Assembly (NCBI RefSeq): GCF_900290195.1
Contig: NZ_OLMF01000005.1
Location: 62,001-126,000 of the forward strand
From: Anaerococcus marasmi
GTDB taxonomy: Bacteria; Bacillota; Clostridia; Tissierellales; Peptoniphilaceae
Reading direction: 5' to 3'
DNA: 64,000 nt
The position numbers and the translations under genes were made by a program. Positions 29,910-45,896 of this stretch are shown piece by piece. How positions within the stretch are numbered: the first letter of the stretch is position 1; every line of letters starts with the position of its first letter. The notes under the pieces were generated by a model, which searched no databases, was not told where the DNA came from, and worked only from the letters and a program-made list of their open reading frames with translations.

Positions 29910-31142
29910 ATGAAACAAAACGAATATCAAATGTTAAAAGAAGCGAAAAAAGTTATACTTGCCTACTCAGGTGGGCTAGACACATCAGTCCTTACGACTT
30001 GGTTGCTGGAAAAGGGTGTAGGCGAAGTGGTTTGTGTATCAGTCGACTTAGGTCAGGTGGGAGATTCAGATAAGCTAAAAGAAAAGGCCCTAGGTCAAGG
30101 AGCTAGCAAGTTTTACAATGTCAATGTAGAAGATGAATTTATAGAAGAGTATGCCTACAAGTCCCTTCTCGCTGGAGCCAAATACGAAAACTTGTACCTA
30201 CTAGGAACTGCCATAGCTAGGCCACTTATAGCCAAGGTCTTAGTAGATATCTACGAAAAAGAAGGAGCAGATCTAATAGTACACGGTTGTACAGGAAAGG
30301 GAAATGACCAAATAAGATTTGAGCTTTCTATAGCAGCTCTAGATCCTAAGATTAAGGTCCTTGCTCCTTGGAGATTTTGGGATATCAAGGGTCGTAGCGA
30401 AGAAGAAGCCTATGCAGCAAGCCACGGCATCAAGCTAGATTTCACTAAGGAAGAAGACTACTCCATGGATGAGAATATCTGGCACCTATCCCACGAAGGT
30501 CTCGACCTAGAAAATCCAGAAAATGAAGCAGACCTTGACAAAATCCTCCATTGGATCACTCCGCCAGAAAAAGCTCCTGATAAGGCTGAAATTGTAGAAA
30601 TATCCTTTGAAAAAGGAAAACCTACTGCATTAAATGGTAAGAAACTTAAGGGAAGCGATATGGTTAAGGCCTTAAATAAAATCGCTGGAAGTCACGGAAT
30701 AGGAATCGATGATATGGTAGAAAGCAGGGTTGTTGGAATGAAGAGCAGGGGAGTATACGAAAACCCAGCAGCTAGTCTCCTATACTTCGCCTTGGAGAAA
30801 CTCCAATCAGTAACAATACATCCAGAAGCCCTAGCCTACAAGCAAAAGATGAGCCTTGATTATGCAAGTCTTGTCTATGAAGGAAAATGGATGACCCCAC
30901 TTAAGGAAGCTATGGACCTATTTATGGAAAAGGTAAATGAAAATACAAGCGGAAGTGTTAAGGTAAAACTATACAAGGGAAATATGTATCCTGCAGGAAT
31001 TTTTGCAGATAAGGCTTTATTTGATGAAGAACTTGCAACCTTCGAAGAAGATGATGTTTATAGCCAAGAAGATGCAACCGGCTTTATCAACCTCTTTGGT
31101 CTATCCACAAAGACTTATGCAGCAGTAATGAAAGAAGATTAG
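29910..31142 (+). CDS. argG: Argininosuccinate synthase
   Basis: The enzyme joins citrulline and aspartate using ATP. The 410-residue protein has the PP-loop VILAYSGGLDTSVL, the HGCTGKGNDQIRFE segment and GRSEEEAYA. Length is normal. It is the first gene after the T-box, 9 bases before argH. No argF or other early arginine genes are in the window, so citrulline may come from outside or from arginine deiminase reactions; that is inference. Confidence 0.96.
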   Translation: MKQNEYQMLKEAKKVILAYSGGLDTSVLTTWLLEKGVGEVVCVSVDLGQVGDSDKLKEKALGQGASKFYNVNVEDEFIEEYAYKSLLAGAKYENLYLLGTAIARPLIAKVLVDIYEKEGADLIVHGCTGKGNDQIRFELSIAALDPKIKVLAPWRFWDIKGRSEEEAYAASHGIKLDFTKEEDYSMDENIWHLSHEGLDLENPENEADLDKILHWITPPEKAPDKAEIVEISFEKGKPTALNGKKLKGSDMVKALNKIAGSHGIGIDDMVESRVVGMKSRGVYENPAASLLYFALEKLQSVTIHPEALAYKQKMSLDYASLVYEGKWMTPLKEAMDLFMEKVNENTSGSVKVKLYKGNMYPAGIFADKALFDEELATFEEDDVYSQEDATGFINLFGLSTKTYAAVMKED

Positions 31143-31151
31143 GAGAAATAA

Positions 31152-32525
31152 ATGAAGTTATGGAGCGGAATGCTTTCAGGTGAGTTGGATAAGCTTGCAG
31201 AAGAATTTAACGATTCGATAAAAATCGATAAAAGACTAGTATATTGTGATATAGAAGGATCTATCGCCCATGTAGAAATGCTCGGCAAAAACAATATAAT
31301 CTCAAATGAAGAAAAAGAAAAAATCATCACAGGTCTTTCTTTAATCTATAAGAATCTTAAAGAAGGCAAGGAAGAAGTCAACGAATCCTACGAGGATATC
31401 CATACCTTTGTTGAAGCAAGGCTTATCGAAGAGATCGGTCCTGTCGGTAAGAAAATGCACACAGCAAGGTCAAGGAACGATCAGGTTACAACAGATTTTA
31501 AACTTTATCTAAGAGATGAGTGTGAAAATATCCTAGAAGATATCAAGGATTATCTGGCATCTCTTATAAAACTTGCTGAGAAAAACACCAAGACCATAAT
31601 GCCAGGCTATACCCACCTTCAGGCAGCCCAAGCCGTAACTTTCGCCCACCACCTCATGGCTTACGCTATGATGGGATTAAGAGATATAGAAAGAATAAAG
31701 TTCTTTAGGCAAAGGATGAACGAGCTTCCACTGGGAGCTTGTGCCCTAGCGGGTACTACCTATGATATAGATAGGGACTTTGTCAAAGATAAGCTAGGAT
31801 TTACATCTCTTATGCAAAACTCCATGGATGCAGTAAGCGATAGGGATTATGTGATTGAATTATCTTCGATTATATCCCTTATATCTATCCACCTATCTAG
31901 ACTTTCAGAAGAGCTAATAATATTTTCCTCCCAACCTTACTCATTTGTAAGAATCGACGATAAATATTCTACAGGCTCTTCCATTATGCCCCAGAAGAAA
32001 AATCCTGATATGGCTGAGCTTATAAGGGCTAAAGCAGCAAGACTTATTGCAAATACAAATCAGTCAATGGTTATGATGAAGGGCCTTCCTCTTGCTTATT
32101 CTAAGGATATGCAGGAAGATAAGGAAGGAATATTTGAAAGTATAGATACCATTAGGGCTATGCTTAAAATAATGGCAGGACAGATAGAAAGCCTTAAGGT
32201 CAACAAGGAGAAGATGCTAGCTGCCTCTAAGGAGGGCTATCTTAACGCAACTGACGTAGCGGATTATCTCGTTGGGAAGAATCTCTCCTTTAGGGATGCC
32301 CACCATATATCAGCAAGGCTTGTAAAATACGCCATGGAAAAAAATCTGTGCTTGGAAGATCTTCCCCTAGAAATTTATAAAAATGAATCGGACTTATTTG
32401 AAGAAGATATCTACCAAGCTATAGATTTATACACATCGGTAAACAAGAGAGATTCCCTAGGTGGACCTAGTGAGAAAGAAGTTCTAAGGCAGATCGCCTA
32501 TGTAAAGGAAAAATTAGAAAGGTAA
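31152..32525 (+). CDS. argH: Argininosuccinate lyase
   Basis: The 457-residue enzyme releases arginine and fumarate from argininosuccinate. It has LWSGMLSGELDKLAEEFN at the start and HTARSRNDQV. The fumarase-superfamily signature GSSIMPQKKNPD holds the catalytic serine loop. It follows argG by 9 bases and precedes the transporter by 3, so the four genes form one unit. Confidence 0.96.
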   Translation: MKLWSGMLSGELDKLAEEFNDSIKIDKRLVYCDIEGSIAHVEMLGKNNIISNEEKEKIITGLSLIYKNLKEGKEEVNESYEDIHTFVEARLIEEIGPVGKKMHTARSRNDQVTTDFKLYLRDECENILEDIKDYLASLIKLAEKNTKTIMPGYTHLQAAQAVTFAHHLMAYAMMGLRDIERIKFFRQRMNELPLGACALAGTTYDIDRDFVKDKLGFTSLMQNSMDAVSDRDYVIELSSIISLISIHLSRLSEELIIFSSQPYSFVRIDDKYSTGSSIMPQKKNPDMAELIRAKAARLIANTNQSMVMMKGLPLAYSKDMQEDKEGIFESIDTIRAMLKIMAGQIESLKVNKEKMLAASKEGYLNATDVADYLVGKNLSFRDAHHISARLVKYAMEKNLCLEDLPLEIYKNESDLFEEDIYQAIDLYTSVNKRDSLGGPSEKEVLRQIAYVKEKLER

Positions 32526-32528
32526 GTT

Positions 32529-34001
32529 ATGAAAAACAAAAAATATGGACTACTGGCTATGCTTTTGGCTCTACTTGTACTTATACCAACAAAAGCATTT
32601 GCAGAAGAAAAAATAGTAGATGATGGAGTGATAGACTTAGGTACAAGCGCAGACTTCCCTCCTTATGAATACTATGAAGGAGACGAGATCGTAGGAATTG
32701 ACCCTGATATAGTTAAGGCAATAGCCGATGAGTTAGGCCTTGAGGTTAAACTTCACGACATGGACTTTAATAATATCATAGCAAGTATCCAATCAGGTAA
32801 GGTCGACGGAGGAGCAGCAGGATTTACAGTAACTGAAGAAAGAAAGAAATCTGTAAACTTTACCGAACCCTTTGCCAAGACTAGCCAAATTATAGTAAAG
32901 AGAAAAGACTCTGATATAGAAGAAATCGAAGATTTGGAAGGGAAAAAACTAGGAACCCAACTGGGATCTATCGGAGACACCATAGCAAAAGACGATTTCA
33001 GAGAAGAAAATGTATCTTCCTTTAATAAGGTCCCAGATGCTATCCTCTCCCTTCAAAGTAAGAAAATAGACGCTGTAATCTTAGATAAGCAAAGTGCAGA
33101 AAACTTCGTAAATGCTAACAAAGATCTAGAAATAGTAGATACACCATATCTTGAAGAAGAATATGCCATAGCAGTTAATAAAGATAATCCTGTCCTTCTA
33201 GAAAAAATGAACGAAGCTATCGCAAAGCTTAAAGAAGAGGGAGAAATTGACAAAATAATGGCCAAATACCAAGGTCCTTTTGAAGTTGAAGAAAGTAAGG
33301 GACTTATTGGCAGATTCAAATCAACAATTATCGATAATGGATCTTATAAATATCTATTAGACGGCCTAAAAATAACAGCGAAAGTAACAGTATGCGCCCT
33401 AATCCTTTCCTTTGTCTTAGGACTTATTATTGCCCTAGTTAGGTCTGCAAAGATTGACATTGGAGATGAACTAAGAGGGATTCCAAAATTCCTACTTGCT
33501 CTATTAGATAAAATATTCGCAATATTTGTATCAATAATCCGTGGAACACCTTCCACAATCCAACTTTTGATAATGTTTAATGTAATCCTAGTAAACCTAG
33601 ATAACTTAGTTCTAGTAGCTATAATTTCCTTTGCCTTAAACTCATCAGCCTACATGGCGGAGCTATTTAGGGGAGGAATTAACTCAGTTAACAAGGGAGA
33701 AAAAGAAGCAGCAAGAAGTCTTGGCCTATCCAACCTACAAATGATGAAAAAGGTAGTAATGCCACAAGCTGTCAAAAACTCTTTGCCAGCCTTAGGTAAC
33801 GAAGTTATAACCCTATTTAAGGAAACATCAATAGCAGGCTTTATAGGACTTGCTGATCTTACAAGGGGTGCATCAATCGTAATAAGTCAAACCTTTGATG
33901 CAGCAACAGCCTACTTCTCCGCAGCTATAATCTATCTTGTCATAGTCCTAGTTATGGAGAAAATATTCAAAGAACTAGAGAAAGGATTCCTATATGCTTA
34001 A
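32529..34001 (+). CDS. Amino-acid ABC transporter, binding domain fused to permease
   Basis: The 490-residue protein begins with a signal sequence ([18 protein letters not shown]). A family 3 solute-binding domain follows (about residues 30-258; [26 protein letters not shown]). The permease domain spans about 280-485 with the EAA loop [23 protein letters not shown]. The fused format tethers the binder to its channel, as in GlnP-type systems. Its place behind argGH and the Arg-type T-box suggests arginine, citrulline or a related amino acid. The end overlaps the ATPase gene by 8 bases. Confidence 0.9.
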
Positions 34002-34719
34002 AGTAAAAAATGTAGAAAAATCATTCGATGAATTGAAAGTCCTAAACGGTATCGACTTAGATGTCGACAAAAAGGACGTAATATCAATCATAGGCCCATC
34101 TGGTTCTGGAAAGTCAACCTTCCTTCGTTGCCTTAACCTTCTAGAAAAACCAGATTCGGGAGATATTTACTTCGAAGAGAAGAAAATCAACGATAATAAT
34201 GTAGATATAAACAAACTCAGGGAAGAGATAGGAATGGTATTTCAAAACTTCAACCTATTTTCCAATATGTCTATCATCGATAACCTTACCCTCGCTCCAG
34301 TAATGAGAGGGAAGATGAACAAGAAAGAGGCAGAAGATGAGGCCATGAAGCTTTTAGAAAGAATAGGTCTTTCAAGCAAAAAAGACGTTTATCCAGTAAG
34401 CCTATCTGGTGGACAGAAGCAAAGGGTAGCTATAGCAAGGGCTCTTATGATGAAGCCAAAGCTCATGCTCTTTGATGAACCAACAAGCGCTCTCGATCCA
34501 GAAATGGTAGGAGAGGTCCTAGAACTTATGAAAGAGCTTGCTCACGACGGGATGACCATGGTTGTAGTAACTCACGAGATGGGCTTTGCTAGAGAAGTAT
34601 CAAACAAAGTAATCTTTATGGACAAGGGAGAGGTCGTAGAGACATCAGAAAATCCAGAAGACTTCTTCCAAAATCCGAAAGAAGAACGTAGCAAACAATT
34701 TTTGTCCATGGTTTTATAA
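33994..34719 (+). CDS. Amino-acid ABC transporter ATP-binding protein
   Basis: The 241-residue ATPase has Walker [10 protein letters not shown], the Q-loop VFQNFNLF, signature [10 protein letters not shown] and Walker [20 protein letters not shown]. This closely matches the GlnQ/ArtM class. It energises the fused binding-permease protein whose gene overlaps it and is the last gene of the T-box operon. Confidence 0.94.
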
Positions 34720-34725
34720 AAAAAC

Positions 34726-34754
34726 TTGACAAAAGGAAAAAATAAGTGTATTAT
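34726..34754 (+). promoter_or_regulatory. Sigma-A promoter of tRNA-Leu
   Basis: TTGACA (34726-34731), 17 bases, then TATTAT (34749-34754), about 18 bases before the mature tRNA. Confidence 0.85.
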
Positions 34755-34771
34755 ATAAAAGTAATACACGA

Positions 34772-34862
34772 GCGGGATTGGCGGAATTGGCAGACGCGCA
34801 AGACTAAGGATCTTGTGACCGGTTTTAAGGTCGTGGAAGTTCAAGTCTTCTATCCCGCACCA
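34772..34862 (+). tRNA. tRNA-Leu (AAG)
   Basis: The acceptor GCGGGAT pairs with ATCCCGC, and CCA is encoded at 34860-34862. A long variable arm (GACC...GGTC) marks a class II tRNA. The anticodon arm CAAGA-CTAAGGA-TCTTG puts AAG at the anticodon, with G37 as expected for CUN-reading leucine tRNAs. A34 is uncommon in bacteria outside tRNA-Arg(ACG). Confidence 0.93.
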
Positions 34863-34866
34863 AATC

Positions 34867-34893
34867 AGCACCTTATAAGTGAGGTGCTTTTTG
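34867..34893 (+). terminator. Terminator of tRNA-Leu
   Basis: AGCACCT and AGGTGCT form a 7-bp stem followed by TTTTTG. Confidence 0.85.
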
Positions 34894-34908
34894 TTTACCC
34901 TTTAATCC

Positions 34909-34936
34909 TTGATTTTAAGGATTATTAAAATATAAT
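34909..34936 (+). promoter_or_regulatory. Promoter of a candidate small RNA
   Basis: TTGATT (34909-34914), a 16-base spacer and a perfect TATAAT (34931-34936). No coding region follows. Confidence 0.7.
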
Positions 34937-34942
34937 AATCTT

Positions 34943-35057
34943 AAGAGAAGCGACCTCTTAACAAAGCCACAAAGCTCTCAAACTTTGTGATATTAGTGAA
35001 TATCAATAGTTCCCAAATGGGCATACAAAAAGCAGGGGCTCAGTCCTGCTTTTTGTT
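34943..35057 (+). ncRNA. Candidate small RNA made of serial hairpins
   Basis: Between its own promoter and a strong terminator lie about 115 bases with no open frame. They hold four short hairpins: AAGAG/CTCTT, CACAAAG/CTTTGTG, GATATT-AGTG-AATATC and CCC-AAAT-GGG. The terminator is AAAAAGCAGG/CCTGCTTTTT (35027-35054). It does not match 6S, SRP or tmRNA as I know them. Directly after it comes a group II intron. Confidence 0.6.
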
Positions 35058-35062
35058 TTTAT

Positions 35063-35643
35063 GTATGACGGGCATGTTCTAATGCTGGGGTGAAATTCCC
35101 TACAGAGCGTAGTTACCAACGAATCTAATAGCGATCCCGAAGTTTTAGGTGGCGACATCTAGGAGAGAAGAACGGGTAGCGAAATCGTGGTTTGACGAAC
35201 AGGAACAGAATATAAGGCGTAGCAGGCGGGCAAGCTAGCTAAAGATAGCAAAGACCCAAAAGGTAACCGTAAACCCAAAGCGTAAATTCTGCGAGTAAAC
35301 GATGAAAGTATTAGGACTTATCCCGTGAGGTCTCATAGACGACACAGTAGTAACAACGAACTATGAGAAGTCAGCAGACTCCATAGTAGTGAAGAAGTTT
35401 CTGTAATGGAAATGGAGCGAAGGGAGGAACGATATTTATTGTAATATTTGAAAAGGATAGACTATGACTTGATGGAATACAAGGAATGACGTATTCATTT
35501 CTCAAGGTTCGGATACAAAAAGAATAAAGTTAAATAGAAACATCAGTAATAAATAATATGATACAAGAAAATATTGAACCGCCGTATGCCGAACGGCACG
35601 TACGGGTGGTGTGAGAGGGGCTATAACTTAGCCCCTACTCGAT
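35063..35643 (+). mobile_element. ORF-less group IIC intron
   Basis: The 5' end GTATGACGGGCATG corresponds to the GUGUGCCCGGCAUG start of the Oceanobacillus iheyensis IIC intron. Domain V (35577-35619) contains CCGCCGTATGCC-GAAC-GGCACGTACGG with the CGC triad of class IIC and is followed by GTGTGAGAGG. A domain VI hairpin (GGGGCTA/TAGCCCC) then runs to a CGAT end. Domain I-III text such as GGTGGCGACAT and GAAGTCAGCAGA is recognisable. No reverse transcriptase or maturase frame is present in domain IV. It sits 8 bases behind a terminator stem and its T-run, a usual landing site for class C introns. Confidence 0.85.
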
Positions 35644-35836
35644 TGGGTAAATTGTGGTCAAAATTATAATTGACTTTAAAAGATTTATTCAAAAGGCAAT
35701 CATTAACAGAGCCAATAAAAAGGAAATATAAGTTTATTTACTACTTCAAATATCACAAGCATATAATTTAATAATATAGCAAAATAAAATTTAAAATATA
35801 CACTATTTAGTCTATTTTTTAACTAACCAAAAAAAT
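35644..35836. other. AT-rich gap between intron and repeat
   Basis: About 190 bases without a recognisable gene or strong secondary structure. Confidence 0.4.
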
Positions 35837-36031
35837 GGGGCTGTTGCTAGATTATGAATAATTATCGTCCCATCATTAGAAGGTTCCATTAGGAAATTTT
35901 ACTTCTCCTTGCCGGTGGGCATATCAGTGCCTGCCGGCTGATGGAGGCATGTAGCCCGTAGGCTTTGTGATACTTTTCGCGGAGGTTCTTCTAATGATAT
36001 TGGGATGATTTATTCATTCTGCAACAGCCCC
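35837..36031. repeat. MITE-like palindromic element, copy C
   Basis: The ends are perfect inverted repeats: GGGGCTGTTGC at 35837 and GCAACAGCCCC ending at 36031. The arms pair over about 60 bases. CGTCCCATCATTAGAAGGTT in one arm answers AAGAACCTCC...CATCCCAA in the other. Compared with copy A (TACC in both arms) this copy has TCCC in both arms, so pairing is kept. No coding capacity. Confidence 0.85.
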
Positions 36032-36134
36032 ATATCCTCATTGATATTAATGAGGATTGGATTACATCTCCTAAATTGTATATTAAAATGAAATAGTTAA
36101 TATTGTAATAGTAAATTCACACAATATTATGGAC

Positions 36135-36163
36135 TTGACTATAAAATAAAAATAAGGTAAGAT
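36135..36163 (+). promoter_or_regulatory. Promoter of the RiPP precursor gene
   Basis: TTGACT (36135-36140), 17 bases, TAAGAT (36158-36163), about 30 bases before the precursor ATG. Confidence 0.75.
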
Positions 36164-36194
36164 AATAGAAAACATTTTCATGAAAGGAGTCATT

Positions 36195-36278
36195 ATGAAG
36201 TATAAAAGAGTAGATAGAAAATACAAGCCTTCACGTATTAATAATAATTGTAATAATAACTGTTCTGAACCTAAGTAA
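36195..36278 (+). CDS. Short Cys/Asn-rich peptide, probable RiPP precursor
   Basis: A 27-residue frame starts at ATG 36195, 5 bases after AAGGAG. The N-terminal part is basic and aromatic (YKRVDRKYKP), which could serve as a recognition leader. The rest reads SRINNNCNNNCSEPK, with two cysteines three residues apart among six asparagines. A gene for a radical SAM/SPASM enzyme and one for an ABC exporter follow, and a strong promoter precedes it. Cys plus Asn is a known pair for thioether formation in sactipeptides such as ruminococcin C, so CNNNC is a plausible cross-link core. I know no described precursor of this form. Coding status rests on start signals and context. Confidence 0.75.
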   Translation: MKYKRVDRKYKPSRINNNCNNNCSEPK

Positions 36279-36300
36279 AAACAAATAAAAACGAAGTTAA

Positions 36301-36387
36301 AATATTGCCTCACCATTAAAATAATGTTTATATATTATATTTTAAAGATTTAATACATAATTTAAAATGGTGGGGCTAATATTTTAT
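36301..36387 (+). terminator. Attenuator hairpin between precursor and maturase genes
   Basis: AATATTGCCTCACCATT (36301-36317) pairs with AATGGTGGGGCTAATATT (36366-36383) apart from one bulge and one G-U. The AT-rich loop is about 48 bases and TTATT follows. Partial termination here would give more precursor than enzyme message. Confidence 0.65.
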
Positions 36388-36418
36388 TCATGATTTCTTA
36401 TTAGAGAAGGGATTATAT

Positions 36419-37714
36419 ATGGGATTAACAATAAAATGGGATATAACTTATGCATGTAATTTATATTGTAAACATTGTATAAATGGACAATACTTGAATA
36501 AAAACGATAATAGTATTAATATAAATGAATTTAAAAATATAATTAATGACATTAGTGAAAACATAAAAATCGATTATATACATTTTCTAGGTGGTGAACC
36601 TACTGTACGTGATGATTTTTTAGATATATGTACGTTTTTAAATGAAAAAAAGATATCCTTTGGTTTTAATACAAATACATTAAAACTAAATGAAGATTAC
36701 ATTAATAAATTATTCAAACTCAAATTTTTAGATAATATCGTTATTAGTTTAGAAGGCCCTACAAAAGAGACTAACGATGAGATAAGAGGCAAATCAGTAT
36801 TTGACAAAATAGACAAAACATTAGATTATATTAAGAAGATCAATAAAAATAAAAAAATAATTATTAATACAGTTTTGAGCAAGAAAAATTATAAATTAGT
36901 GAACGAATTAATGAGATACTGCATAGATAAAAATGTTACTGAATTAGATTTATTAGATTTGATAGAGTCTGGAAATGCTATGGGATCTGGTTTATCTCTA
37001 AATTTCGAAGAAAAGCTCGAGGCACTAAAGTTGATTGCTTCTAATATGAAAAGTGATTTAAAAGTTGTAACTAAATTTGCTCGTCCATTGATGATAAAAT
37101 ACATAAATAGAAAATTCTCTACGAATTTAGATTATACAAGTCATGGATGTAATGCTGGTTTATCCTTTGTTTATATTAATAATATGGGTGACATTTATTC
37201 TTGTGATAGAGTTAGAAATGAACATATTAATAATAATACAATAAATTTGACTTCTATAAATTTCAATAAAGCATGGAATGATAAAGAATTTTCTAATATT
37301 TTCGAAATGCTTGAATCCAGAAATTATGCTAATATATGGCCATGTTTGGAGTGTGAATTTTTTAAAGATATTTGCTTTCCTTGCCCAATTGATATGCAAG
37401 ACACAGATAAAGTTCAAGAATGTGCAAAAACTATGAGACTTACTTACAAACTTGATTATAGGAATATTAATTTCAAATATGGACCAATTAGAACTGCCTA
37501 TAATGAAAATTCTTATATTATTTACCATGTGTCTTTGGATAAAACTTTTGAATTAGATGAGGACTCATATAAAATATTCAATCTTCTTGAAATTGGAAAA
37601 TATAAAAATCTTGATGATATTTGCTTGGATTTTGAGTCTAAGTTAAAGGTCGATGATATTATAAAGTTTTTAGATTATTTAGAAGATGAAGGGGTAATAG
37701 AGGTAGGAAGTTAA
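36419..37714 (+). CDS. Radical SAM/SPASM peptide maturase with PqqD-like C-terminus
   Basis: The 431-residue enzyme has the radical SAM CxxxCxxC cluster motif (Cys13, Cys17, Cys20 in YACNLYCKHC) and GGEP at 58-61. A SPASM domain follows with Cys244, Cys262 (after GDIYS), Cys309, Cys312, Cys319, Cys322 and Cys335, enough for auxiliary iron-sulfur clusters. Residues about 365-430 (FELDEDSYKIFNLLEIGKYK, then a helix ending EDEGVIEV) resemble a PqqD-type RiPP recognition element that would bind the precursor leader. Such enzymes form thioether or C-C cross-links on ribosomal peptides. It lies 140 bases after the peptide gene and overlaps the exporter gene by one base. Its DNA is more AT-rich than the housekeeping neighbours, consistent with transfer. 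Confidence 0.88.
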   Translation: MGLTIKWDITYACNLYCKHCINGQYLNKNDNSININEFKNIINDISENIKIDYIHFLGGEPTVRDDFLDICTFLNEKKISFGFNTNTLKLNEDYINKLFKLKFLDNIVISLEGPTKETNDEIRGKSVFDKIDKTLDYIKKINKNKKIIINTVLSKKNYKLVNELMRYCIDKNVTELDLLDLIESGNAMGSGLSLNFEEKLEALKLIASNMKSDLKVVTKFARPLMIKYINRKFSTNLDYTSHGCNAGLSFVYINNMGDIYSCDRVRNEHINNNTINLTSINFNKAWNDKEFSNIFEMLESRNYANIWPCLECEFFKDICFPCPIDMQDTDKVQECAKTMRLTYKLDYRNINFKYGPIRTAYNENSYIIYHVSLDKTFELDEDSYKIFNLLEIGKYKNLDDICLDFESKLKVDDIIKFLDYLEDEGVIEVGS

Positions 37715-39339
37715 TGCTAGATAAGTATAAAAAATTAATGTCCTATATAGGTCCTTTTAAGAAAACCAGATTATTTATTTTATTTATATGTTCGCTCGAT
37801 ATTTTATTAGCATCCCTAACACCTTTTTTGATAGGAGAATTGATAAACATTATAAATAACGGAGAAGCGGTAGCTTTGATTATAAAGCAAGGCCTAATTA
37901 CAATTCTTGTCGCTCTATTTTCTGGTATTTTAAATACATATCAAAATTATAAATGGCATTTATTTTCTGTTGAATACCTAAATTACTTCAGGACTCTCTT
38001 ACTAAAAGCGGGACTTAACAAAGACACTAGCTTTTATAAAAATAAGAATGAAGACTATGCAACAAGAATCCTTCAAGACTCTCTTAATATTGCCGAGGAT
38101 ATAAGTATTGGACTTCCTATGCTAATATTAAATGTTTTAAGACTAGCTATTGTAATATTCTTTATGGTCAGGATGAATGCAAAGCTTAGTCTAATTCCTC
38201 TGACTGTGATTCCTATATACATTATAGTATTTCATTTTATAAACAAAGACATTAGGGAAAAATCTAAAAAAGAAAGAGAAGGCTATTCCCTCATATCAAA
38301 AACTGTAAATGAATATTTATCTGGAATATTTGAGATTAAAATAAACAATAAAGAAGAGTTTTTTCTTGAAAAATTTAAAAATAAGATAAAAGAATATACC
38401 AATATTTTGAAGAGAATGAGGCTATTAAGAGCCATATCCTATGGTTTTTCTACAATAATCACAGGAGCATTGCCAGTAGTTACCTTAGTAGTGGGCGGAA
38501 TAATGGTATATAAAGGTAATCTTGAGCTAGGATTTTTATTTTCTTTCTATGCCTATCTAGATTTTTTATACGAGCCAATGAACAACCTAATTGATTGGTA
38601 CACAAATATCAATGTGAGCCTAGGAATGGCTGATAGGATCCTTGACTTCTTAGATTATGAAATGAGAAGCGAAGAAGGAATCAAGGTAAATTCTATAGAA
38701 AAAATACAAGTAAAAGACCTAGATTTTTCATATGGGGACAAAGAAGTATTAAAAAATATTTCTTTTGACTTAAACAAAGGTGACATACTTGCCATTGTCG
38801 GAGAAAGTGGTTCGGGTAAATCCACCCTAGCTAATCTCTTGCTAAAAAATATAGCTTTCAAAGCGGGAAGTATTTTTGTAAATGGAATAGACTTACATGA
38901 AATAGATAAAAAATCTTATTATGATAACCTATCTCTTATAAGCCAGGATGTTTTCATCTTCACTGATACACTAAAGGACAATATTTCCTATGGCGGAAGG
39001 CTAGATAAAAAATCTCATATTTTTAAAGAAGCGAGACTCGAAAAATTAATAAATTCGAGAAAATCATTAGAAAGTCTTATCTCTAATGATGAATTATCGG
39101 GAGGAGAAAAGCAAAGACTTGCCATAGCTAGGGTTCTTTATAAAAATTCTGACCTTATAGTTTTGGATGAGTTTACAGCTGCCCTAGATCAAGAGAATGA
39201 AAAAGAGATTGTGGACACATTCATGAATATGAACAATAAAGATAAGATATATATAATAATAAGCCACAGAAAATATCCTCTAAGCATGGCTAATAAGATT
39301 TTGGACTTAAATAATGGAAGCTTTAAAAAGCTTATCTAA
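37714..39339 (+). CDS. ABC exporter (permease-ATPase) of the RiPP locus
   Basis: The 541-residue half-transporter has about six helices in residues 15-300 and then an ATPase. The ATPase has Walker A GESGSGKST, signature LSGGEKQRLA and Walker B LIVLDEFTAALD, with Phe replacing the usual Pro, and the H-loop ISHRK. There is no N-terminal C39 peptidase domain, so leader removal, if any, needs another protease. The gene starts within the stop of the maturase gene (TAATG), implying coupled translation. It should export the modified peptide; a lipid or drug exporter role is possible but the coupling argues against it. Confidence 0.88.
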   Translation: MLDKYKKLMSYIGPFKKTRLFILFICSLDILLASLTPFLIGELINIINNGEAVALIIKQGLITILVALFSGILNTYQNYKWHLFSVEYLNYFRTLLLKAGLNKDTSFYKNKNEDYATRILQDSLNIAEDISIGLPMLILNVLRLAIVIFFMVRMNAKLSLIPLTVIPIYIIVFHFINKDIREKSKKEREGYSLISKTVNEYLSGIFEIKINNKEEFFLEKFKNKIKEYTNILKRMRLLRAISYGFSTIITGALPVVTLVVGGIMVYKGNLELGFLFSFYAYLDFLYEPMNNLIDWYTNINVSLGMADRILDFLDYEMRSEEGIKVNSIEKIQVKDLDFSYGDKEVLKNISFDLNKGDILAIVGESGSGKSTLANLLLKNIAFKAGSIFVNGIDLHEIDKKSYYDNLSLISQDVFIFTDTLKDNISYGGRLDKKSHIFKEARLEKLINSRKSLESLISNDELSGGEKQRLAIARVLYKNSDLIVLDEFTAALDQENEKEIVDTFMNMNNKDKIYIIISHRKYPLSMANKILDLNNGSFKKLI

Positions 39340-39387
39340 GTTTAGCTTAATATATATCAGATTATAGAACCTAAGTATTTATCTCTT

Positions 39388-39582
39388 ATGTTAGCTAAAG
39401 ATATGAAGTCTAAATTAGATGGGCTTGAAAATTATAGAAGTATAGGCAAGGCTCTTGTTGGTCAATATAAGGGACTTTGGAGATATAGAATAGGTTCTTA
39501 TAGGGTTATTTGCGACATAAGGGATGATGAACTTATTGTTTTAGCGATTGATATTGGACACAGAAAAGAGATATACAAGTAG
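39388..39582 (+). pseudogene. RelE/ParE-family toxin, N-terminally truncated remnant
   Basis: The 64 codons match the C-terminal two thirds of RelE-type toxins: [25 protein letters not shown], split here by description, then [14 protein letters not shown]. The first 25 or so residues are absent and an in-frame stop lies just upstream. There is no ribosome site before the ATG and no antitoxin gene beside it. It is probably dead DNA at the edge of the accessory island. Confidence 0.7.
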
Positions 39583-39659
39583 GAAAAATGCATTTTTTTC
39601 TTTCTAGAGTAGAAAGTGATTCTAACAAAAAAATAAGAAAGACAAAAATATTAACAAAC

Positions 39660-39688
39660 AATCGTACTTTTTTGGTGCGATTTTTTTG
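39660..39688 (+). terminator. Terminator before the ispE operon
   Basis: ATCGTAC and GTGCGAT pair with one G-U around a T-rich loop, followed by TTTTTTTG. Confidence 0.7.
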
Positions 39689-39783
39689 ATATTTTATATT
39701 TACATTTTGTTTGTTTTTTCTACTCTTTACAATTTCCCAATACGAAAACACCCTACTTATGATATAATAAATTAGAGGTAATT

Positions 39784-40620
39784 ATGGAAAGAAAATGTTA
39801 TGCTAAGGTTAATCTTACCCTCGATAGCCTGTCGAAAAGAGATGACGGTTATCACGAAATCGATAGTATTATGGTTAGGATTAATCTGTTTGATAAATTG
39901 ATTATAAAGAAAAATAAAGAGAATAAATTTAATTACGAGACTAATATCCCTAATATCTGCGCCCTTGAGGATAATCTTATCTATAAGGCTTGGAGTCTGC
40001 TAAAGGATAGGGTAGATGAGAATGGAGTCGATGTGACTTTGATTAAAAATATTCCCCTTGCAGCAGGTCTTGCTGGAGGCTCTACTGATTGCGCAGAAAT
40101 GATTAAGGGTCTTGATAAGCTTTGGAATTTAGGTCTTTCTCTAGATGAGAAGATGGCTCTTGGCAAAAAGCTTGGAGCAGATATTCCATTTTTCTTCCTA
40201 GAGTCTAATGCTAGAGCACGTGGAATCGGAGAAATTCTAAGCCCTTTTACCAATAAGCTTAAGATGAAGCTTCTCCTTATAAACGATGGGACAGAGATCT
40301 CCTCTGCCTTTGTCTACAAGAGGCTTAATGATTATGGAGTAATCAATACTTCAGAAATTATAGATAAGCTCCGCAAGGGAGAAAAATCTGCAATCTCTGG
40401 CTTTAGAAATGTGATGGAGGATGTAATATTTGAAAGCTTCCCCCATATCAAGGATATTTGCTCAAGACTTGAGGATAGCGGGGCAGAAAAGGCCTTGGTC
40501 AGTGGATCTGGAGCGAGTGTCTTTGGAGTTTTTACTGATGATAAGAGCCTGGAATTTGCCTATGATAAGCTTAATGGAAAGTATAAGTTCGTAGAGAAAG
40601 TGGAGTTAGTAGATGACTAG
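39784..40620 (+). CDS. ispE: 4-diphosphocytidyl-2-C-methyl-D-erythritol kinase
   Basis: This GHMP-family kinase phosphorylates the MEP-pathway intermediate CDP-ME. The 278-residue protein has the start CYAKVNLTLDSLSKRDDGYHE, the ATP-binding loop PLAAGLAGGSTDCAE and the C-terminal SGSGASVFGVF. A TATAAT (39763-39768) lies 15 bases upstream of the ATG. Its stop overlaps murI by 8 bases. Confidence 0.95.
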   Translation: MERKCYAKVNLTLDSLSKRDDGYHEIDSIMVRINLFDKLIIKKNKENKFNYETNIPNICALEDNLIYKAWSLLKDRVDENGVDVTLIKNIPLAAGLAGGSTDCAEMIKGLDKLWNLGLSLDEKMALGKKLGADIPFFFLESNARARGIGEILSPFTNKLKMKLLLINDGTEISSAFVYKRLNDYGVINTSEIIDKLRKGEKSAISGFRNVMEDVIFESFPHIKDICSRLEDSGAEKALVSGSGASVFGVFTDDKSLEFAYDKLNGKYKFVEKVELVDD

Positions 40621-41365
40621 GATTGGAGTTTTTGATTCAGGTCTAGGGGGACTTACTGTCCTAAGGGAGCTTGCCAAAACTAACAAGAGCCAGTATTTTT
40701 ATTTCGGAGATAGCCTTAGAGTTCCCTATGGGGGAAGGAGCGAAGAAGAACTTAGGAGATTTTCTGTCGATATTGTAGATTTTCTAGAAAAATTTTCTAT
40801 AGACTATTATGTAATAGCCTGCAATACTCTTTCTGTTACTGTGACAGATTTTCTTAGGGAAAAATACAAGAAAAAATTCATTCCCATCACAGATCTTGCC
40901 CTTAGGGCTTGTGAGAAATACCAAGGCAAATTCCTGGTTTTAGGAACTGAGACAACTGTAAACAGTCATTTTTATAAGAAGAATTTAGAAAAAAATCCTA
41001 ATACTACTGTTTATGAAGTCGCTGCTAGTAAGCTTGTAGATTTGATAGAAGATGACAAAAAAGATGATGAAAAGTTAAATGAATATATAGACTCCTATAT
41101 AAAGATTGCCAAGGAGAAGAAAATAGAAAATATCCTCCTAGCCTGCACTCATTATCCAATTATAAGGGATAAAATCGAGAGAAGGCTAGATTATAAGGCA
41201 AATATTATAGATCCAGCAATCTTTTTAAGCGAGAGTCTAGAAAGTGCGAGCGATAATTTGGATATTAATATATTTATGTCCAAGAAAACTCCTGCCACAG
41301 AGAATTTGATACCGAAACTTATAGATTTTCCCTATAAGCTAAATTATTTGAAGGAGAACTTATGA
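40613..41365 (+). CDS. murI: Glutamate racemase
   Basis: The enzyme makes D-glutamate for peptidoglycan. The 250-residue sequence begins TRIGVFDSGLGGLTVLREL and keeps both catalytic cysteines in IACNTLS (about residue 72) and LACTHYP (about 182). It is joined by overlap to ispE upstream and by ATGA to ppx downstream. Confidence 0.95.
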   Translation: MTRIGVFDSGLGGLTVLRELAKTNKSQYFYFGDSLRVPYGGRSEEELRRFSVDIVDFLEKFSIDYYVIACNTLSVTVTDFLREKYKKKFIPITDLALRACEKYQGKFLVLGTETTVNSHFYKKNLEKNPNTTVYEVAASKLVDLIEDDKKDDEKLNEYIDSYIKIAKEKKIENILLACTHYPIIRDKIERRLDYKANIIDPAIFLSESLESASDNLDINIFMSKKTPATENLIPKLIDFPYKLNYLKENL

Positions 41366-42267
41366 TTTATGCAATAATGGATATTGGAAGTAACACAGTT
41401 AGGTTGTCAGTCTACAAACAAGTCGAGGATAAGGCAGTCCATCTTTTTAGCGAGAAAGAGCAAGCCTCTCTTAGAAATTATGTCAAGAAGGGAAATCTTA
41501 CAGATAAGGGTATCGATAGACTTATTGCTACCTTGAGGAGATTTAATTCTATCATTTCAAACTTTGATGATATAGATAGCGTCCATCCTTTCGCTACAGC
41601 AACCATTAGAGATGTAGCCAACAGGTCCGAGATCCTTAAGAGGGTTAAGGATGAATTAGATCTTGAGATAGAGATTCTTTCAGGAGAAGATGAGGCGAGA
41701 CTTTCCTTTATAGGAGCTAGTAAGTCGGTAGATGTCAGTGAGGGTGTTTTGACAGATATCGGCGGAGGTTCATCTGAGGTTGTAATAATAGATCAAGGGA
41801 AGGTAATTAAATCGACCTCCCTTTCTATAGGATCTTTATCAGCCTTCAACGATTATGTAACGGGCTTATTTACTAACAAGAAGGAGAAAAAGGCAATTGA
41901 TAACGCTGTAAAGCTCCTTTTGGCAGAAAACAAGATGTATAGGGAAAAACAAAGTAATCTCTCTGCTGTGGGTGGTTCTGCTAGGGCATCCCTTAAGTTT
42001 TATAATGAGTATTACAATCTTTCAAATTATAATTCTACTATGGATGCCAAGAAGTTTAACAAAATGGTCAAAGAGATTTTGGAGATGGATGATAGAGATA
42101 TCCTGGATAGGATTCTAGAGATAAAACCAGATAGGGTTCATACTTTGATTCCTGGTATGGTTATCTTAAATAGATTAGCAAAATATTTTTATGTAAATGA
42201 AATAAATATCAGCCAAACAGGCGTTAGGGAAGGGTACGTATATAGCAAGTTATTAGAAAGGAAATAA
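41362..42267 (+). CDS. ppx: Exopolyphosphatase / Ppx-GppA phosphatase
   Basis: The 301-residue protein belongs to the ASKHA-fold Ppx/GppA family. It opens with MDIGSNTVRLSVYK, has EILSGEDEARLSF, the phosphate loop DIGGGSSEVV and GGSARA. It is the short form without the C-terminal HD-like domain of E. coli Ppx. Its substrate is polyphosphate or pppGpp. Pairing with ppk1 one base downstream favours polyphosphate. Confidence 0.9.
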   Translation: MIYAIMDIGSNTVRLSVYKQVEDKAVHLFSEKEQASLRNYVKKGNLTDKGIDRLIATLRRFNSIISNFDDIDSVHPFATATIRDVANRSEILKRVKDELDLEIEILSGEDEARLSFIGASKSVDVSEGVLTDIGGGSSEVVIIDQGKVIKSTSLSIGSLSAFNDYVTGLFTNKKEKKAIDNAVKLLLAENKMYREKQSNLSAVGGSARASLKFYNEYYNLSNYNSTMDAKKFNKMVKEILEMDDRDILDRILEIKPDRVHTLIPGMVILNRLAKYFYVNEINISQTGVREGYVYSKLLERK

Positions 42268-42268
42268 T

Positions 42269-44455
42269 ATGAAAGACGTATCTTTTACACAAAACAGGGA
42301 GCTATCATGGCTCAAATTTAACGACAGAGTCTTAGAGGAGGCAGCAGATAAGTCTGTTCCCCTGCTTGAGAGACTCAAGTTTTTATCGATCTTTGATACC
42401 AATCTAGAAGAGTTTTTTATGGTGAGAATTGGTTCTCTTACCGACCTATCAGGCCTATCCAAACAGGCCATAGATTCTAAATCAGGCTTAAGCCCTAAGG
42501 AGCAAATCGACAAGGTCCTAGAGATTTTACCCAAATCCTATGCCAAGAAAGACGAGGTATATTTCGATATTCTAGAAGATCTTAAAGAGGAGGGAGTTAG
42601 GATATCTAAATTATCAGATCTTGATGACAAAGACCTCATATCATGTAAGAATTATTTCGACAGCAAGATTGAGCCTATACTAAATTTTCAATTGATAGAT
42701 AGGACCCATCCTTTTCCTAGACTTGCCAATCTATCTATAGTTATAATCTTTGATTTAATTGCTTCTGATAAGAAAAAAAAGGATAAGATAGGTATTATTT
42801 ACCTTCCAGATAGACTTCCTAGATATTTAAAGTTAGCCGACAATCATTTCGTCTTGCTTGAAGATATTATAGAGACCTTTGCAGGAGAACTTTTCTACAA
42901 GTATAAGATAGAAAAGTCCTACGCCCTTTCCCTAACTAGGAATGCAGATATCAACTTCAACGATGACGACTATGAGGTCGAACAAGACTTTAGGGACTAT
43001 ATGATGGGTAAGCTTAAGAAAAGAAAGAGACTTCATCCTGTAAGGGTGGAAGTCGATAAAGACTTAGATGACGCTTCCATCAAGTTTTTGACCAAGCAGT
43101 TTAATTTAAGCAAAGAATCAATCTTTGTGACGAAGTCTCTCATCCAGTCAGATTTTATCTTTGACCTAATAAGTGACATGCCAAAAGAGTTTAGGGAAAA
43201 TCATAGCTATAGTGAATTTATTCCTCAAAACTCCTACTTTATAGATGAGAAGAAATCTGTTATAAGTCAAATAGAAGAGGGTGATAAGCTACTTTCCTAT
43301 CCTTACGAGTCGATGGACCCTGTAATAAGACTTCTCAATGAAGCAAGTACAGATCCTGAGGTAATATCTATCAAAATCACCTTGTACAGGATAGCAAAGG
43401 AAAGTGAGATTGCCAAAGCCTTGATTAAGGCTAGTGAAAATGGGAAAGATGTCATAGTCTTAATGGAGCTTAGGGCAAGATTTGATGAAGATAACAACAT
43501 TCTTTGGTCATCAAGACTTGAGAAGGCAGGATGTAATGTAGTCTATGGATTCGAAAACTACAAGACCCACTCAAAAGTATGTCTTATCACAAAAGTCGAT
43601 TCGAATAACAAGATTAGCTACATCACTCAAGTTGCAACAGGAAACTACAACGAAAAGACTGCCAAGCTCTATACGGATTTTTCCTTTATGACTAAAGATA
43701 ATGAAATAGGAAAAGATGCCAAAGAAATCTTTGACAACATCCTTATAGGAAACCTTGAGGGAGATTATAAACATTTGATGGTAAGCCCTAAATCTATGCA
43801 AGAAGGATTGGATAAGCTGATAGATGAAGAGATAAGGATCCAAGAAGAAACAGGGGAAGGCTACATTAGGCTAAAGATGAATTCAATCTCTGATAGGAAA
43901 CTTATAGATAAGTTATCTGAAGCGAGCAACAAGGGTGTAAAAATTGATATGATGGTTAGGGGAATTACCTGCATCCTTCCAGGAATCAAAGGAAAGACCG
44001 AAAATATAAGAATCTATCAAGTTGTGGGAAGATTCTTAGAACATCATAGGATCTATCAATTTGGTAAGGGAGAAAAGATAAAGCTATATATCTCATCAGC
44101 TGATTTCATGACAAGAAACATCAGAAATAGAATGGAAGTAGCAGTTCCTATAAATGACGTCACTATCAGAGAAAGAATCCTAGAATTTCTTGATATAATG
44201 TTTGCGGACGATGTCAAAATTAGAGAATTATCTTCCGATGGGAATTACTACAAAGTAGAAAACAAAGAAAATATTATCGCCCAAGATAAGTTAATTGAAA
44301 TTGCAATAAAAAGAAGCCAAGAGAAAAGTATTAGAGAAATTCCTAGAAGCAAAGAAAATACAAAAGGAGACAAAAGAGCTTCTAAGAGCAATAGAAAAAA
44401 TGAGAAATCTTTTGGGTGGAAACTGGGTTACTTCTTGGGGAAATTATTTTCTTAA
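42269..44455 (+). CDS. ppk1: Polyphosphate kinase 1
   Basis: PPK1 polymerises the terminal phosphate of ATP into polyphosphate. The 728-residue enzyme has the N-terminal helical domain (QNRELSWLKFNDRVLEEA) and both conserved histidines: His434 in YKTHSKVCL, equivalent to the phosphorylated residue, and His592/593 in FLEHHRIYQFG. The C-terminal 50 residues are Lys/Ser-rich and add to the usual length. Synthesis and breakdown genes in one operon suggest tight control of the polymer. Confidence 0.95.
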   Translation: MKDVSFTQNRELSWLKFNDRVLEEAADKSVPLLERLKFLSIFDTNLEEFFMVRIGSLTDLSGLSKQAIDSKSGLSPKEQIDKVLEILPKSYAKKDEVYFDILEDLKEEGVRISKLSDLDDKDLISCKNYFDSKIEPILNFQLIDRTHPFPRLANLSIVIIFDLIASDKKKKDKIGIIYLPDRLPRYLKLADNHFVLLEDIIETFAGELFYKYKIEKSYALSLTRNADINFNDDDYEVEQDFRDYMMGKLKKRKRLHPVRVEVDKDLDDASIKFLTKQFNLSKESIFVTKSLIQSDFIFDLISDMPKEFRENHSYSEFIPQNSYFIDEKKSVISQIEEGDKLLSYPYESMDPVIRLLNEASTDPEVISIKITLYRIAKESEIAKALIKASENGKDVIVLMELRARFDEDNNILWSSRLEKAGCNVVYGFENYKTHSKVCLITKVDSNNKISYITQVATGNYNEKTAKLYTDFSFMTKDNEIGKDAKEIFDNILIGNLEGDYKHLMVSPKSMQEGLDKLIDEEIRIQEETGEGYIRLKMNSISDRKLIDKLSEASNKGVKIDMMVRGITCILPGIKGKTENIRIYQVVGRFLEHHRIYQFGKGEKIKLYISSADFMTRNIRNRMEVAVPINDVTIRERILEFLDIMFADDVKIRELSSDGNYYKVENKENIIAQDKLIEIAIKRSQEKSIREIPRSKENTKGDKRASKSNRKNEKSFGWKLGYFLGKLFS

Positions 44456-44485
44456 ATCAAAATTTAAAAAAAGTTCGAAAGTCAA

Positions 44486-44565
44486 ACTGCTATAAAAATT
44501 AGTCATCTTATAGGAAAATCCTTATATACCTAGACAAATGATTTGTTTTTGTAGCAGTCTTTTTA
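44486..44565 (+). terminator. Long-loop terminator after ppk1
   Basis: ACTGCTATAAAAA (44486-44498) pairs with TTTTTGTAGCAGT (44546-44558), followed by CTTTTT. The loop is about 47 bases. Confidence 0.6.
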
Positions 44566-44701
44566 TGAGTAAAACTTTCAAAAATAAATTAAATTTATAA
44601 AATTACAAGGGAATAATTTTTAATTTAGGAAATATCTGAAAAAACTCTTTAAAAGTCTAAAAATACTTGAAATAGGGCTGTATTTTTTTACCTTTACATG
44701 T

Positions 44702-44834
44702 TATAATAAATATAAGAATTTAGCAATCTAAAGTAGGTTTTGTAAATTGAAATATATTTATAAGTCCTGGCGAATGATTGCTTATCCCTTAGACTTTACA
44801 AAAGACAAAATATTGAAATAAATAGAGGAAGGTT
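44702..44834 (+). promoter_or_regulatory. Promoter and structured leader of the carboxypeptidase gene
   Basis: TATAAT stands at 44702-44707 without a clear -35. The 125-base leader contains TTTTGTAAA (44738-44746) paired with TTTACAAAA (44795-44803), and inside it AAGTC/GACTT. I match it to no riboswitch class. The stretch from 44566 to 44701 is AT-rich and shows nothing. Confidence 0.4.
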
Positions 44835-45833
44835 ATGTCTAACAGAGGTATCAGAGAATTAAAGAGAAAAAAGAGAAGACAAGCGAGAAAAAGAAGAAAA
44901 AAGTTCCTACTAACTAGCCTTGCGGCTATAGCCCTAGTGCTTGGAACAAAATTTCTAAAAACCAATGAGGAAGAATTTATAATCCAAAGACCTGCCGAAT
45001 ACAGGCAAGCCCAGGCAGCTGATGATGGAGAAGAAGACAAAGAAAAAAAGATAAATGGAGATAAAATCCACATAGCTACCCAAGCTGGATTTAAGGATAT
45101 AGAAATAGAAGAAGATAAAAAAATTAATGACGATAAGTATGAGGATAGTCTAGTAGAGTTTGTAAGATGCGCCAAGACCCAATACGCCTACCAATATCCA
45201 AATGATTATTCCAAGACAGAAAAGTTCATAAAAGAAGGAGATTATGTCGCCTATTACGGGAGTGAAAATGGTTTTTCAAAAATCAAAATGGACGACAGCT
45301 TTTACTATGTCAATAAATTTGGCCTAGAAAAGTTAAATCCTGAAGAAAACATCAAAGTTGTAAATGGAATAAGCTATGTAAGCGAAGCTTATCCTTTGCC
45401 AAGTGATTTCAATCCAGGAGTGGATAAGACCGCCAAACGTGCCTTTGAGACTATGCGCCAAGATATGGAAAGAGAAGGTCTTAGTATAAAGATAGCATCT
45501 GACTATAGGGACTATGCCCTAGAAGAAAAGATGAAAGAAGCAGGCGAAGTAGATAGTGAAAATCCTGCTACAAGCGAGCACCAATTAGGCCAAGCCTTCG
45601 ACTTTTTTACAGAAGGAAGCAAATATAGTGATAAGTTTGCTACTACCAATGAATACAAGTGGCTTTGTGAAAATGCTTACAAATATGGATTTATAGAAAG
45701 ATACCCAGAGGGTAAAGAAGACTTCACAAATCACAGACCTATGCCATGGCACTTTAGATTTGTCGGTGTAGAAAACGCCAAGGAAATCTATGAAAATGAT
45801 TTAAGTCTTGAAGAGTATTTGAAGATTAACTGA
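44835..45833 (+). CDS. Membrane-anchored VanY-type D-alanyl-D-alanine carboxypeptidase
   Basis: The 332-residue protein has a very basic N-terminus (RKKRRQARKRRKK), one membrane helix (about residues 24-41), a charged spacer, and an SH3-like region (about 110-165). A VanY/LAS metallopeptidase domain (about 175-325) follows. The zinc site is SEHQLGQAFDF (His and Asp) plus PWHFRF (His). The domain trims D-Ala from muropeptides outside the membrane. Nothing nearby resembles a van cluster, so a wall-maintenance role is likelier than resistance. Confidence 0.9.
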   Translation: MSNRGIRELKRKKRRQARKRRKKFLLTSLAAIALVLGTKFLKTNEEEFIIQRPAEYRQAQAADDGEEDKEKKINGDKIHIATQAGFKDIEIEEDKKINDDKYEDSLVEFVRCAKTQYAYQYPNDYSKTEKFIKEGDYVAYYGSENGFSKIKMDDSFYYVNKFGLEKLNPEENIKVVNGISYVSEAYPLPSDFNPGVDKTAKRAFETMRQDMEREGLSIKIASDYRDYALEEKMKEAGEVDSENPATSEHQLGQAFDFFTEGSKYSDKFATTNEYKWLCENAYKYGFIERYPEGKEDFTNHRPMPWHFRFVGVENAKEIYENDLSLEEYLKIN

Positions 45834-45861
45834 TTGTATTTTTTTGGAATTTCGATATAAT
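45834..45861 (+). promoter_or_regulatory. Promoter of ridA
   Basis: TTGTAT (45834-45839), 16 bases, TATAAT (45856-45861), 35 bases before the ATG. Confidence 0.7.
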
Positions 45862-45896
45862 ATAAGTGTAAATTATAATTAAATTAAGGAGTTTAT

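Follow-up and report, generated by a model that had tools for sequence, protein, structure and literature searches.

A short Asn- and Cys-rich peptide gene, a radical SAM/SPASM maturase and an exporter in Anaerococcus marasmi: a candidate RiPP cassette with an Asn-x-Cys motif

What is made from a gene of only 27 codons that is followed by a radical S-adenosylmethionine (SAM)/SPASM enzyme and an ATP-binding cassette (ABC) exporter? Such a three-gene cassette, all on the + strand, lies in a stretch of 64,000 nucleotides of Anaerococcus marasmi DNA (contig NZ_OLMF01000005.1); this whole stretch is called the window, and the coordinates of the locus are positions in it. The initial annotation of this DNA described a short gene preceded by a ribosome site, a maturase and an exporter coupled by TAATG, and all of these are present. 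The TAATG is the overlap of the maturase stop and the exporter start, by which translation of the exporter would be coupled to that of the maturase. The locus had been read as one for a ribosomally synthesized and post-translationally modified peptide (RiPP), and this is borne out by a conserved upstream peptide, a predicted recognition-element fold in the enzyme and a conserved exporter. We are nearly certain that the locus is a real RiPP system, and it very probably belongs to a real, small and sparsely found RiPP family.

The full 27-residue precursor is MKYKRVDRKYKPSRINNNCNNNCSEPK, which we would divide into a leader MKYKRVDRKYKPSRI, a core NNNCNNNC and a tail SEPK. Tiny precursors may easily be dropped from gene annotation. 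When every start codon is taken separately, the window contains 957 start-to-stop frames of 20-45 codons, 18 of which have a Shine-Dalgarno match of at least 5 bases; among these 18, the precursor alone has two Cys within its last 16 residues. An upstream short Asn/Cys-rich gene with a ribosome site is present in all six intact close maturase loci. They come from five genomes in three genera, namely the window, G024 (same genus), G145 and G148 (same family) and G089 (same order, with two copies). The reading of the locus could have fallen on homologous maturases with no such upstream peptide; when this was checked, the peptide was there in all six, with the more distant G789 and the broken G767 locus, both described below, standing outside the count. 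The precursors of the relatives are MKFKIVKRHYGNSRLNNNCNNNCGTID in G024, MNTLSFGIIKANNPVGALGNNCNGCNGCLSEPTLR and MNTLTFGKELIRKDFIVIKPTNLCNNC in the first and second copies of G089, MLSYATLKHNHGQKGAAGNNCNGNNHCKGK in G148 and MKNEILFYEDVERNYTVYANSLFSCFVNNNCNIVV in G145. G024, the nearest homologue, keeps NNNCNNNC exactly, and the eight codons for it show two synonymous and zero non-synonymous differences from the window. At four of the six loci no other frame of 15-140 residues in the scanned stretch has a ribosome site, and none of the six peptides matched an NCBIfam model at an expectation value (E) of 1 or better.

One might suppose that the short frame is no gene, that the maturase acts elsewhere and that CNNNC is a chance product of AT-rich DNA, in which Asn codons are common. 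In a search of five genomes for a second precursor, the pattern AAYAAYTGYAAYNNNNNNTGY, which as written misses the G089, G145 and G148 precursors, occurs at 5 places, 2 of them the known window and G024 peptides, and the reversed pattern likewise occurs at 5. However, small genes with ribosome sites stand upstream of the maturase in 6/6 loci whose DNA differs and which have the N-x-C rule described next in common, and we find this explanation very improbable.

The sequence CNNNC, which the initial annotation took as the defining motif, is found only in the window and G024 peptides and did not survive as a family trait. Across the six peptides, 12 of the 13 cysteines have an Asn at -2, giving the unit N-x-C; the counts at other offsets are 8/13 at -1, 7/13 at +1 and 6/13 at -3. 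When the non-Cys residues of the last 16 positions were permuted 20,000 times, 4.65 cysteines with an Asn at -2 were expected, and 12 were reached in a single shuffle. In a test that takes the best of 8 offsets, 0 of 20,000 shuffles reach the observed value, whether all six peptides are used or G024 is left out; P is 0.003-0.0035 after dropping both G024 and one G089 peptide. The residue between Asn and Cys can be N, G, L or H, and because it varies, the position that is fixed is -2. As judged from the peptide sequences, the family motif on this small sample is N-x-C, not CNNNC.

The same cassette might instead follow the streptococcal rule N-x-x-C (i,i+3), in which case the window peptide would be a two-ring relative of NxxcA. 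A precedent exists, in that NxxcB joins Cys23 to Asn20 at C-beta (PMC8326336; PMC13361665), and both of the window Cys have an Asn at -3. With three Asn ahead of both of its Cys, the window peptide does not distinguish -2 from -3, whereas the G089 cores do: an Asn at -3 is found at none of the five G089 Cys, nor at the first Cys of G148. Over the whole family the -3 count is not clearly above the shuffles (P 0.07), and we regard an i,i+3 rule as unlikely.

The maturase itself has a Radical_SAM match in Pfam (E 1.1e-20), and its SPASM region scores close to the Pfam cut-off of 21.5 bits (20.7 in the window, 22.0 in G148 and 20.1 in G145). The CxxxCxxC motif (C13/C17/C20) and the seven further Cys that had been assigned to the SPASM region are invariant in 6/6 maturases, and the close homologues are 41-46% identical to the window enzyme in alignments. 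Among the 25 best NCBIfam models listed, none reaches its cut-off for the window enzyme. This agrees with the earlier description of the locus as apparently undescribed, as do the unmatched peptides and the listings and text excerpts of open-licence papers, in which no Asn-x-Cys RiPP family was found.

The nearest NCBIfam model is the mycofactocin maturase TIGR03962 (117.6 bits, cut-off 265), and the mycofactocin maturase is not known to make thioethers. The radical enzyme could do non-thioether chemistry, such as epimerisation of Asn or a decarboxylation, with the Cys serving for metal or disulfide; cores such as NNCNGCNGC could bind metal. However, disulfides or metal would not need strict N-x-C spacing, and the number of core Cys varies, so that such chemistry seems to us quite unlikely. 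The StsB sactipeptide maturase model (NF045574) gave 68.7 bits where 625 are needed, and the PapB ranthipeptide maturase model (NF047865) gave 53.5 of 340. The weak match to StsB would fit a sactipeptide-like product, with C-alpha links or with Cys linked outside their own N-x-C unit, and Asn is one of many acceptors in sactipeptides (PMC8326336). Yet in most known sactipeptides the donor Cys lie towards the N-terminus and the acceptor residues towards the C-terminus, ruminococcin C and streptosactin being different (PMC8326336), and the cores here can be as short as NLCNNC at the very C-terminus. We consider this alternative improbable.

The C-terminal tail of the maturase, described earlier as PqqD-like, is predicted to adopt the fold of a RiPP recognition element (RRE), and the enzyme is thus predicted to carry an RRE at this end. 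In two relatives the RRE is a separate small gene, and both G089 maturases end before it. The RRE alignment compared with the G789 RRE in hhalign gave a probability of 16% and an E of 0.0016, and the separate G089 RRE gene had no Pfam PqqD match; because of these two results, the assignment rests mainly on the predicted fold.

Known enzymes with this architecture are able to join Cys sulfur to a carbon in another residue, and a Cys-Asn thioether is likely in this family. Since Asn is conserved at -2, an i,i+2 thioether between Cys and Asn is the simplest reading. We propose that the C-terminal RRE of the maturase would bind the leader, that the radical SAM cluster would generate a carbon radical at the Asn that precedes each core Cys by two residues, and that this carbon would form a bond with the sulfur of the Cys, which an auxiliary SPASM cluster would keep in place. 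One thioether, with a loss of 2 Da, would form per N-x-C unit, and two would form in the window peptide. The likeliest acceptor carbon would be C-beta, which by our own count of ring atoms would give 10-membered rings of the ranthipeptide type, and the ABC exporter would carry the product out. PapB accepts Cys-Xn-Asp with n from 0 to 6 in vitro (PMC9413430), and so a ring of i,i+2 span should be makeable by such an enzyme. That the locus is a minimal cassette making i,i+2 Cys-Asn thioethers, with the leader bound by the RRE and the product exported, is a proposal that we see as evenly poised between right and wrong. A fuller version is more tentative and, in our judgment, somewhat more apt to be wrong than right: it would be a new RiPP family in which unusually short precursors (27-35 residues) receive Asn-x-Cys thioethers spanning i,i+2 in rings of 10 members, mostly in tandem, the RRE being either joined to the C-terminus of the enzyme or encoded by a separate gene and any leader removal being carried out by an outside protease.

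Several observations weigh against these proposals. The lone exception to the motif is the first Cys in the G145 peptide, which lacks an Asn at -2. The cores are rich in Asn, which is frequent also at -1, +1 and -3, so that the window peptide by itself does not show which Asn would react; the peptides are few (six, from five genomes) and some of them are related; and the -2 offset was picked after inspection, for which the best-of-8 test allows. At G024 there is a second upstream frame with a ribosome site, an 87-amino acid transposase remnant, and at G148 another such frame lies inside the upstream gene. The structure model is poor in its SPASM part, with a predicted local distance difference test score (pLDDT) <50 in several stretches. 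Finally, no upstream peptide passed the filter in the 491 bases upstream of the G767 maturase, and G789 is without such an upstream peptide and has a different Cys-rich candidate downstream.

How widespread is the cassette? The enzyme searches covered 101 related genomes, 130 of the family, 249 of the order, 391 of the class and 398 of the phylum. These sets overlap, and those for the class, the phylum and large families are samples; in all but the first of them, and in the three further sets named below, at most 4 to 29 first-look candidates were scored per genome, in many genomes a subset, and relatives were possibly missed. Within these searches close homologues appeared only in G024, G145, G148 and G089, where the two copies are near each other. 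The order search gave a strong match in 5 of the 249 genomes, the window's own included, and a weak one in one more. A sample of 329 genomes from a single large family within the class, a set without a positive control, yielded no match at E 1e-50, and neither the class of G767 (59 genomes) nor the order of G789 (20 genomes) added further homologues. From these searches, the family looks scarce.

Some loci do not fit the pattern. In G767 (L047 4354-5556) a transposase-like gene, recognised by eye, lies inside the maturase gene, which has a further interruption as well; the RRE and exporter genes are still open. The maturase of G789 is more distant (E 5e-70, phylum search). Its locus (L048 4721-6607) has a fused PqqD domain in the maturase (Pfam E 2.2e-13), followed by a 122-residue candidate precursor that has a CxxC-rich tail and contains ...DSCRSCDGCRNC..., and this system may be another RiPP family. 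The second G089 copy (L034 10828-10870) ends in the apparent last codons of an exporter gene, which suggests a duplication of the cassette with loss of the RRE and the exporter. Two weak loci in G223 (E ~3e-46 and 4e-45), in a gene listing that omitted frames under 40-50 amino acids, are by eye other radical SAM plus PqqD-like systems and were excluded from the family. Plasmid and phage copies were sought by tblastn and rejected: the matches in 14 plasmid records, where the annotation is mostly mycofactocin maturase, and in 4 unannotated phage records were all distant (<= ~31% identity). Viral contigs, when scanned, yielded 7 loci of <=28% identity, of which the one inspected (L053) is a different system, and a contig scan with the single enzyme protein gave 2 distant archaeal loci.

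The exporter has the Pfam domains ABC_membrane and ABC_tran and shares 36-52% identity with its counterparts in the four other loci where an exporter is present. A C39 peptidase is absent from its Pfam matches and the window peptide has no Gly-Gly leader site, as the initial annotation had said, and so the C39 domain and Gly-Gly leader of a C39-type bacteriocin exporter are both lacking. Inspection by eye of the listed neighbour genes revealed no leader protease, and so the leader would be trimmed by a protease from elsewhere, or the whole 27-mer would be exported. Apart from the exporter, nothing recognisable as an immunity gene was seen around the locus.

A strong predicted hairpin occupies the gap between peptide and maturase genes in 6/6 loci, with a different sequence each time. 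The window gap has a minimum free energy of -32.0 vs -16.9 when shuffled (z -4.93, from 200 dinucleotide shuffles per gap), and the corresponding z scores are -5.33 in G024, -3.89 and -3.69 in G089, -3.84 in G145 and -5.45 in G148. Because it stands between precursor and maturase, the hairpin may partly terminate transcription or protect the upstream RNA, which would leave the precursor in excess over the enzyme.

The "good promoter" of the initial annotation needs correction: both boxes are present, but the -35 box belongs to a mobile element and the arrangement is not conserved. An insertion sequence (IS) of the Mutator/IS256 family has ACAATATTATGGACTTGACT as its terminal inverted repeat, and the final six bases of this repeat make up the -35 TTGACT, whereas the -10 TAAGAT falls outside it. 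The 20 bases ACAATATTATGGACTTGACT are exact in 5/6 other copies fetched from the window's genome, the copies diverge immediately past them, and a full transposase lies beside one copy (Transposase_mut match 3.3e-134). On this alignment the putative window promoter is a hybrid with its -35 supplied by the IS256-like end, and IS256-family ends with outward -35 boxes are known to form hybrid promoters (PMC7780238). In G024 the IS end is ~274 bases from the peptide start codon vs ~54 in the window, which is why the arrangement is not considered conserved. Promoter-like sites were found upstream in G145 (12/12 matches) and G148 (10/12); the same scan gave none for the first G089 peptide and, for the second, only one site, of 8 matches. 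Further copies of a 127-base block (36034-36160) are present in G024 and elsewhere in the window's genome. The idea that it is a shared promoter of a regulon was dropped, since the block is the 3' end of the Mutator/IS256 transposase gene plus its inverted repeat. The window's genome also has a miniature repeat with two facing IS ends (AGTCAAGTCC...GGACTTGACT; L076 1825-1879), which appears to derive from this IS.

By eye, the gene neighbourhoods differ, with arginine biosynthesis genes and ispE near the window locus and a uridine diphosphate (UDP)-sugar dehydrogenase in G024; together with the IS remnants beside both loci, this suggests that the cassette moved horizontally. An element of ~195 bases resembling a miniature inverted-repeat transposable element (35836-36034; terminal inverted repeats of ~46 bases, 82% alike) abuts the IS remnant and cuts it off at 36034. 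The genome of the window contains 27 matches to it, and 19 of these, counting the element itself, are nearly full length. Farther upstream are group II intron pieces (35146-35640), with Rfam matches to D1-D4-3 at 35146-35314 and D1-D4-1 at 35340-35425 and, by eye, a domain V-like stem near 35580; the list of open reading frames (ORFs) has none of >=60 amino acids between 34928 and 36083. Downstream of the cassette, a RelE/ParE-type toxin frame (39388-39582, 64 amino acids) covers profile positions 29-89 of 89 and for this reason probably lacks its start; no antitoxin partner for it was recognised by eye. The features of the locus are listed in Table 1.

Table 1. Positions of the cassette and adjoining features in the window
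Feature	Position	Strand	Basis
Precursor peptide gene, 27 aa (amino acids)	36195..36278	+	frame, ribosome site, upstream homologues, shuffle controls
Shine-Dalgarno AAGGAG upstream of precursor gene	36184..36189	+	
Putative hybrid promoter, -35 TTGACT 36135-36140, -10 TAAGAT 36158-36163	36135..36163	+	IS-copy alignment
Right-end remnant of Mutator/IS256-family insertion sequence, outside the RiPP system proper	36034..36140	+	alignment of copies
Predicted hairpin between precursor and maturase genes (approximate limits)	36298..36389	+	predicted fold
Radical SAM/SPASM maturase, 431 aa	36419..37714	+	Pfam, NCBIfam, homologue alignment
Maturase C-terminal part, predicted RRE (PqqD-like) fold	37466..37711	+	structure prediction
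ABC exporter, 541 aa, C39 peptidase domain not found	37714..39339	+	Pfam

If the N-x-C rule is true, a tight ring topology would be added to the enzymatic thioethers, and a system of three genes with a 27-residue peptide would be small enough to be rebuilt in one experiment. The hairpin after the precursor gene is a possible handle for finding such loci.

How does the cassette compare with known systems? The window enzyme resembles SuiB, SkfB and other solved RiPP maturases in combining radical SAM, SPASM and RRE, and SuiB (5v1q/5v1s) is its best match in both sequence and fold among solved structures, at an identity of ~20%. The RRE is at the C-terminus of the window enzyme, whereas it is at the N-terminus (residues 1-75) in 5wgg, which we take to be CteB. 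Some relatives have a separate RRE gene, as MftC and PqqE have the separate MftB and PqqD; unlike mycofactocin and pyrroloquinoline quinone loci, the ORF list from 30000 to 46000 contains no cofactor-pathway genes that could be recognised by eye. SCIFF peptides are defined by six Cys in ~45 residues, and the window peptide has 2 in 27, with 2-3 in its relatives. A thuricin-like radical SAM locus has been listed in Anaerococcus prevotii (PMC4289311), and one survey counted 22 unexplored radical SAM RiPP pathways (PMC9062424), among which the present family may be included.

Three groups come closer in their crosslinks or motifs. Triceptides (three-residue cyclophanes) have i,i+2 crosslinks in which the Asn C-beta is a common partner, but the other partner is an aromatic ring (PMC11002830), and the window core NNNCNNNC is without an aromatic residue. 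The freyrasin ranthipeptides (PapA/PapB) are alike in having repeated units of Cys and an acid residue and a radical SAM/SPASM maturase (PMC9413430); there, however, Cys comes first and Asp/Glu second, whereas here Asn is ahead of Cys. The streptococcal NxxC peptides (NxxcA/NxxcB), which are RiPPs made by radical SAM enzymes, also have a small precursor, one radical SAM enzyme and an Asn shortly before the Cys, and NxxcA contains a C-beta thioether from Cys to Asn (PMC8326336; PMC13361665). Compared by motif rather than by NxxcB sequence, they have the Asn at -3, whereas here it is at -2 for nearly every Cys, and the present family, unlike NxxC, usually carries two or three N-x-C units.

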